Source: Gemmatimonadota bacterium
GTDB lineage: Bacteria > Gemmatimonadota > Gemmatimonadetes > Gemmatimonadales > GWC2-71-9
NCBI GenBank assembly: GCA_003222155.1
Contig: QHUU01000060.1
Coordinates: forward strand, 1 to 61,417
Direction of reading: 5' to 3'
DNA: 61,417 bases
Below, one piece after another: positions 51,579 through 52,273 of this stretch (within the stretch, counting starts at the first letter, position 1; every line of letters begins with the position of its first letter). The notes under the pieces are model-generated. The model was not told the DNA's origin, ran no database searches, and was given only the letters and a program-made list of their open reading frames with translations. A program made the position numbers and the translations under genes.

Positions 51579-51584
51579 GAGACC

Positions 51585-51980
51585 TCACCCCCTGACCCCC
51601 TCTCCACTTCGTGGAGAGGGGGAACGGCGTGTAAGATCTTGCAACAACCCCTTCAGGATCTCTTCCCGCAACGAGTCGTTACTGATTCGAAGTACCTTGA
51701 GTCCTCGCGATTCCAGACGCGCGGTACGCGCGGCGTCATAATCTGACTGCATCTTGATCGCGTGTCCGCTTCCGTCGATCTCGAGCACCAGTCGCAGCTC
51801 AGCGCAGTAGAAGTCTACAATAAAGCCTGCGACGACATGCTGGCGGCGGAATTTCAGGTTGAGCATGCGGCGATTCCGGAGCATGTCCCACACTTTTCGT
51901 TCAGCGATGGTCAGCTCGCGCCGCAGGTCCCGTGCCCGCCGGAGCTTGGGCTGCGGGATCGGTGGATGTCGGAGGCGCAT
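51585..51980 (-). CDS. DUF559 endonuclease-domain protein (Vsr/PD-(D/E)XK-like)
   Basis: A 131-residue protein of typical DUF559 length. LRRELTIAERKVWDMLRNRR at the start, FRRQHVVAGFIVDFYCAE and LRLVLEIDGSGH in the core (Asp and Glu-x-Asp as catalytic candidates), RTARLESRGLKVLRISND near the end. The fold is related to Vsr mismatch endonucleases. The last residues (SPSPRSGEGVRG) are encoded by the inverted repeat. Its location, flanked by the repeat, suggests a nuclease that acts on or moves the repeat, as TnpA-REP proteins do for REPs; this is a hypothesis. Confidence 0.85.
   Translation of the reverse strand: MRLRHPPIPQPKLRRARDLRRELTIAERKVWDMLRNRRMLNLKFRRQHVVAGFIVDFYCAELRLVLEIDGSGHAIKMQSDYDAARTARLESRGLKVLRISNDSLREEILKGLLQDLTRRSPSPRSGEGVRG
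51596..51622. repeat. C/G hairpin, left end of the DUF559 element
   Basis: CCCCCTCTCC and GGAGAGGGGG form a 10-bp stem around ACTTCGT. It is followed outwards by the GGGTGAGGTC tail (read on the minus strand). Confidence 0.9.
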
Positions 51981-52068
51981 GGGGGGACTGTACTGACCAG
52001 TCGTTGGGGAATTGACCCCGATTCACGCCGGCTGTGGCTGATTCGCGCGCAGGTCCTTTCAATGCGTC

Positions 52069-52095
52069 CCCCCTCTCCGCAACGCGGAGAGGGGG
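52069..52095. repeat. C/G hairpin, right end of the DUF559 element
   Basis: CCCCCTCTCCGC and GCGGAGAGGGGG form a 12-bp stem with an AAC loop, then the GGGTGAGGTC tail. A tail-only copy follows at 52114-52130 (GGACAGGGGGTGAGGTC). Confidence 0.9.
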
Positions 52096-52231
52096 TCAGG
52101 GGGTGAGGTCCGCGGGACAGGGGGTGAGGTCCGCAACAAGACGAGCTGCCTTGCAGTGATTCGATGACACACCCAGTGAATCTGTCTAGCATCGTTCCAT
52201 CCGATGAGTGCACGGACGGCGTCATGGCGTC

Positions 52232-52273
52232 CCCCCTCTCCGCGAAGCGGAGAGGGGGACAGGGGGTGAGGTC
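52232..52273 (+). repeat. Solo copy of the C/G hairpin and tail, ahead of yifB
   Basis: CCCCCTCTCCGC and GCGGAGAGGGGG (52232-52258) with a GAA loop, then an ACAGGGGGTGAGGTC tail that ends exactly at the base before the yifB ATG. There is no DUF559 gene with this copy. The GGTGAGG in the tail is the only ribosome-binding-like sequence for yifB. Confidence 0.85.

Follow-up and report, generated by a model that had tools for sequence, protein, structure and literature searches.

The window, that is the whole stretch of 61,417 nt analysed here, contains a compact unit of 530 bp in which one gene lies between two inverted repeats (Table 1). An earlier note on this DNA had read the two ends, 51581-51605 and 52086-52110, as inverted repeats carrying hairpins, and sequence comparison agrees: they are exact reverse complements over 25 bp. 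This length holds for perfect identity but not for the full extent of the end, as similarity runs on inward (89% over 46 nt and 81% over 62 nt). Each end is composed of three pieces, namely a G-rich tail pointing outward, a hairpin with a 12-bp stem (CCCCCTCTCC...GGAGAGGGGG) and, on the inner side, a short CGT[T/C]C-type motif. Both further copies reported near the element were found, namely a solo hairpin (52232-52273) and one with the tail only.

Table 1. Features of the DUF559 element and of the neighbouring repeat copies (positions in the window)
Feature	Position	Strand	Remark
Outward tail, left end (GACCTCACCCCCTGA; on the minus strand: TCAGGGGGTGAGGTC)	51581..51595	-	Mirrors the stem purine arm; gives the DUF559 stop codon
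DUF559 (PF04480) PD-(D/E)XK / Vsr-like nuclease gene, 131 aa	51585..51980	-	
Left-end hairpin CCCCCTCTCCACTTCGTGGAGAGGGGG	51596..51622	-	
Inner flank AACG (CGTT on the minus strand)	51623..51626	-	In the CGT[T/C]C motif adjoining the hairpin
Inner flank CGTC, right end	52065..52068	+	
Right-end hairpin CCCCCTCTCCGCAACGCGGAGAGGGGG	52069..52095	+	
Outward tail, right end (TCAGGGGGTGAGGTC)	52096..52110	+	
Tandem tail-only copy (GGGACAGGGGGTGAGGTC)	52114..52131	+	Directly outside the element
Solo repeat unit (CGTC + hairpin + tail)	52228..52273	+	Same position conserved in congener G001

The enclosed gene had been taken for a DUF559 nuclease gene, alone between the repeats and with its stop codon in one of them. 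Both the profile match (PF04480, E 5e-32, 110.5 bits against a gathering score of 20.6) and the coordinates bear this out: the left repeat supplies the stop codon (51585-51587) and the last codons (about SPSPRSGEGVRG), and residues 121-131, within this repeat-encoded C-terminus, are predicted to be disordered. No known transposase family was found in the element, where Pfam, NCBIfam and PADLOC matches were to DUF559/nuclease only, and no HUH/Y1 transposase gene lies inside the repeats. Foldseek matched the protein to 3HRL, 3R3P and 1VSR. The closest solved structures are Neisseria NGO0050 (3HRL) and the homing endonuclease I-Bth0305I (3R3P), and the fold is that of Vsr. DUF559 thus resembles the EDxHD/Vsr-like homing endonuclease I-Bth0305I and Vsr (1VSR), with the same fold and a related active site. 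Nuclease-driven mobility is a known role of homing endonucleases; the DUF559 unit carries no intron or intein and is bounded by inverted repeats. Vsr itself is a mismatch-repair nickase, unlike the role proposed below for DUF559.

The repeat core occurs three times in the window (0.00 expected) and as 33 exact copies in the 3.45-Mb draft genome; the CGT-type foot adjoining the hairpin is kept in 30 collected genome copies. As single-stranded DNA, the three window copies gave folding z values of -4.4 to -5.0 compared to shuffles. In this repeat the tail mirrors the stem purine arm (GGAGAGGGGG / GGGGGTGAGG), and a hairpin followed by a mirror tail is, as judged from the sequence, the pattern of a potential intrastrand purine-motif triplex. 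The repeat had no match in Rfam. It is the intrastrand triplex motif that Holder et al. 2015 (PMC4666352) called ‘TM’, known as boxC/PIT in E. coli, with which it shares the hairpin and mirror tail (CCCTCTCCC-GGGAGAGGG-NN-GGGGTGAGGG), the inverted doublets and the strain-variable presence. This motif is present in hundreds of genomes, with 23 copies in E. coli K-12, and its origin has so far been unexplained. The triplex was demonstrated in vitro on single strands, and in vivo footprinting failed to support its stable formation. The same authors looked around the repeats for mobility genes and for transposase or integrase remnants and reported none (PMC4666352). The earlier note had proposed repeat and nuclease together as a possible new element; this stands for the unit and not for the repeat family, which is already published. 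What was described there is the repeat alone; the finding of a DUF559 gene enclosed by two copies is new. No published link between DUF559 and such repeats was found in a search of the open-access literature.

The CGT[T/C] motif adjoining the palindrome is also reminiscent of the CGTC-tagged REPs, which have 8-9-bp stems starting with A-T, short CCA tails and no dedicated transposase (PMC3733652). Membership of this superfamily was rejected in view of the 12-bp C/G stem and the G-rich 15-nt tail. At the alphaproteobacterial DUF559 loci inspected, arms are either of the triplex type or absent, and none are CGTC REPs.

The window genome contains two DUF559 genes, and both lie inside pairs of inverted repeats with tails pointing outward. 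Because such pairs cover only 0.11% of this genome, the probability of finding both genes there by chance is about 1e-6. We further scanned 84,980 species genomes with an alignment of small DUF559 proteins. The 80 named loci obtained belong to many phyla of bacteria and to two groups of archaea. An inverted-repeat score of at least 28 across the gene was obtained for 59 of the 80 loci, compared to 5 of 264 windows shifted within the same loci; among ordinary ORFs, 4 of 193 had strong inverted repeats. With a score of at least 30, the numbers were 55/79 for DUF559 loci and 1/193 for other ORFs of similar size. About a quarter of the DUF559 loci are without a strong inverted repeat. The active-site residues D56, E67, H73 and D82 are present in all 80 loci and E27 in 79. 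That a C/G-rich repeat happened to flank an ordinary gene is hardly credible given the figure for the window genome alone, and this reading is refuted by the multi-phylum control, in which the association recurs across phyla. In its favour, two other inverted pairs in the window genome (C5 and C77), about 1.2 kb apart, flank ordinary genes. These genes, assigned by reading, are for a GH43-like hydrolase and a Gfo/Idh-like oxidoreductase, and the pairs were set aside as chance neighbours.

The arms of DUF559 loci share one architecture, a hairpin with a G-rich tail mirroring the stem. This mirroring of the stem purine arm by the tail holds in 46 loci, as in GGGAGAGGGG with GGGGTGAGGG, GGAGAGGGGG with GGGGGTGAGG, GGGAAGGGG with GGGGTTAGG and GGGGAGGGGG with GGGGGTGGGG. 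Stem and tail covary in these loci with z = 10 compared to random re-pairing under G:G and A:T rules, relatedness of the loci being left in this value. Tail direction differs between DUF559 clades, outward for some and inward for the rest; recognition therefore cannot be identical in all.

Among 101 related genomes, most canonical small DUF559 genes have repeats on one or both sides. Repeats were found on both sides at L001, L002/L037, L033, L034, L036 and L041, on one side or decayed at L039, L040 and L043, and as a single hairpin at L035. No such repeat was present within the locus sequence compared at L038, nor at L042 and L044-L050, whose DUF559-like proteins are weak hits and mostly large. 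Loci in other Gemmatimonadota families agree with the arm association, including some whose hairpins depart from the usual pattern.

We then compared the presence of repeat and enzyme in 395 Gemmatimonadota genomes. At least five repeats were found in 21 of 29 DUF559-positive genomes but in only 14 of 366 DUF559-negative ones (odds ratio 66, p = 1.9e-19, with kinship partly controlled), so the repeat is not equally common in relatives devoid of the gene, the finding that the earlier note had named as decisive against its proposal. The association is also observed inside the window's own family (f1; p = 1.4e-6). The nine repeat-rich genomes outside it are all DUF559-positive, and in genus g77 the sole DUF559-positive genome has 19 copies where DUF559-negative members have 0-4. 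Most of the 14 repeat-rich genomes without detected DUF559 belong to genera with DUF559-positive sisters, and some are incomplete; those outside such genera are G048, G049 and G026. G048 carries about 50 repeats, many in doublets of 66-75 bp (e.g. L091, L092, L093), DUF559 being undetected at 86% completeness.

These exceptions bear on the idea that DUF559 is a passenger between repeats moved by another cellular enzyme or made by slippage or recombination. Some genomes in which DUF559 was not detected (G048, G057, G042) do keep many repeats, most repeat copies are gene-less and DUF559 has no known transposition chemistry. Against this, the same gene family lies inside a pair in many phyla and in archaea, its active-site residues are conserved, all repeat-rich genomes outside f1 have DUF559 and the repeat class tracks the DUF559 tree and not the host. 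We regard a passenger role as possible though unlikely.

The covariation of repeat and enzyme is seen in several ways. Repeat similarity and enzyme similarity are correlated (r = 0.34 overall and 0.20 between phyla), with none of 5,000 permutations as high. Tail orientation requires 5 changes on the enzyme tree, compared to 15.5 with shuffled labels, many forks of this tree being weakly supported. The enzyme of the Dolichospermum copy (L181) groups with Chloroflexota and Bipolaricaulota copies of the same repeat class and not with Nostoc-type copies, which suggests that the unit was transferred in one piece.

Orthologous sites in the genus of the window were also followed. Clean empty sites among sister species were found at two of the three sites, so that filled and empty states do occur at orthologous positions, as the earlier note had expected of a mobile element. 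At the OsmC site, the element is present in G000 and G001, and G006 has an intergenic gap of about 40 bp without hairpin. At a convergent-gene site, the element is present in G004 and G007 (the G007 gene lacking its N-terminus), the G003 copy is partly N-masked and G002 retains a decayed remnant. The same site is empty and scarless in G000, G001, G008 and G009, where the gene ends are nearly adjacent. As the decayed copy in G002 is still visible as a scar, the sites with no scar are most readily taken for the state before insertion. Flanks of filled and empty junctions are too diverged to define a target-site duplication. Comparison of L095 with its congeners gave no clean empty site.

The window site itself differs in congener G001, where both hairpins are kept, the DUF559 gene is lost and a short spacer lies between them. 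This doublet was rejected as an empty site. Its spacer still encodes LLIDLKRRPPSP, compared to LLQDLTRRSPSP in the window protein, that is, C-terminal DUF559 codons, and the doublet is therefore an internal deletion of the element. By analogy with the formation of a MITE from an IS, a gene-less doublet can thus arise by internal deletion. The G001 doublet recalls IS/MITE pairs, in which an autonomous unit and an internally deleted derivative have the same ends. Unlike these, the DUF559 unit contains no DDE, HUH, serine or tyrosine recombinase, and with the diverged flanks a target duplication was undetected.

Other copies interrupt operons. Sphingomonas plasmid copies with triplex-type arms are located between sufB and sufC and between NAD(P) transhydrogenase (pnt) subunit genes; the elements within operons lie at 1430-1875 in L269 (plasmid NZ_CP155753) and 1445-1896 in L270.

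Alternatively, DUF559 could be a repair or surveillance nuclease for triplex or hairpin lesions, kept beside the repeats for its function or for autoregulation, the repeats being substrates and not transposon ends. The Vsr-like fold would suit such a role, triplex motifs are linked to instability (PMC4666352) and Caulobacter VsrA, a relative of DUF559 investigated as an enzyme of the repair type, influences the response to DNA damage (PMC12907096). Nevertheless, this leaves unexplained the inverted copies on both sides, the differing sites of sister species, the empty sites, the insertions within operons and the clustering of the cyanobacterial unit with Chloroflexota units. We consider it improbable.

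The earlier note had compared the unit to REP/RAYT systems. The logic of this comparison is retained: as in REPtrons (REP/BIME with RAYT, or TnpA_REP), a small nuclease gene lies between inverted palindromic repeats, solo and doublet copies are dispersed in intergenic regions and the repeats outlast the gene. Membership is not, since DUF559 is no relative of the RAYT enzyme and the clade's RAYTs have other repeats. DUF559 is a PD-(D/E)XK/Vsr-like and not an HUH-tyrosine enzyme, and its ends have a potential triplex mirror tail and, in place of the GTAG foot, one of CGT type. It is also very improbable that the window-type repeats are GTAG-type REPs moved by a RAYT (HUH, Y1_Tnp), with DUF559 incidental. 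RAYT genes do occur in several of the same genomes, but none of 10 sampled clade RAYT loci carries the window-type repeat, several having their own GTAG-type repeats, and in G002, G004, G007 and G008 repeats are present with RAYT undetected. RAYT was therefore rejected as mobiliser of this repeat, the clade RAYT loci carrying other repeats. Clade RAYT (Y1_Tnp) genes are flanked by palindromes of their own, e.g. CCCCGGGGCATGGCCCCGGGGTCGGTCTAC, as in L231 (G024, 1252-2068, in tandem), L230 (G003) and L229 (G035). RAYT with these palindromes is another nuclease/repeat system, independent of DUF559, within the same family.

Taken together, these results make it quite probable that the 530-bp unit is a minimal mobile element, a DUF559 gene between inverted repeats of hairpin and mirror tail, in which DUF559 would act on the ends and the host would join them. 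Conservation of the unit of nuclease and potential triplex repeat is established by the sequence comparisons, its mobility is well supported and DUF559 is likely to drive this mobility. Neither the enzyme class nor the end structure fits any known mobile-element family, and the organisation works like that of a REPtron.

PD-(D/E)XK/Vsr-type nucleases hydrolyse DNA without joining ends, and insertion would require a partner or repair by the host. We propose that the end folds while single-stranded, at replication forks or during repair, and that DUF559 would recognise the folded end and, we infer, cut at or beside it. Metal-dependent PD-(D/E)XK enzymes form no covalent intermediate for strand transfer, so that joining must be left to host repair; the end, or the entire unit, would next be copied by host replication and repair into a break at another position, in a homing-like or template-switch process. 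The tandem tail copies outside the ends (52114-52131 in the window, three in L036) are in keeping with slippage during replication or with template switching. Dispersed doublets and solo hairpins would be gene-less derivatives of the element, and element and repeats would spread jointly, within genomes and between phyla.

More broadly, we are inclined to see here a hitherto unrecognised class of prokaryotic elements, found in many bacterial phyla and some archaea, in which DUF559 would recognise triplex-capable ends and disperse them by cutting and host repair, and which would be the source of TM/PIT/boxC. The DUF559 and repeat unit is thus probably the origin of a very widespread and unexplained bacterial repeat, and the presence of DUF559 between two copies makes this origin directly testable. 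It also provides a likely role for a very common domain so far without a known function, and points to a second route, besides RAYT/REP, by which a tiny nuclease can fill genomes with palindromes, the signal being a triplex and not a plain hairpin.

In E. coli K-12 the DUF559 gene is ycjD. YcjD ends with RRSPSP, encoded by a repeat-like hairpin, and TMECO 9 of Holder et al. lies about 165 bp from the gene. Downstream of ycjD (L221 2200-2450; K-12 1351199-1351449), a degenerate second ycjD 3′ end adjoins a triplex repeat. At the position of the ycjD unit, other E. coli lineages carry the eefRABCD operon (PMC12817139), so that this site offers no clean empty comparison. A gene-less doublet at hrpB-mrcB is present or absent depending on the strain. 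The alx-sstT locus was rejected as a filled/empty site: the strain B insert is an unrelated sequence (L262, C2566, 385-800) and K-12 has a repeat doublet.

Two further observations concern the ends. Arrays of tail-only units of about 28-30 nt were found outside element ends in L036 (1849-1947, three units), in the left flank of L041 and in the left arm of L250, and such arrays are a possible trace of the copying mechanism. In family f11, DUF559 genes (L244, L241 and L236, in G151, G152 and G157, respectively) are flanked, with weak scores, by a different short hairpin (TCCCCTCT..AGAGGGGA), which may represent another end type.
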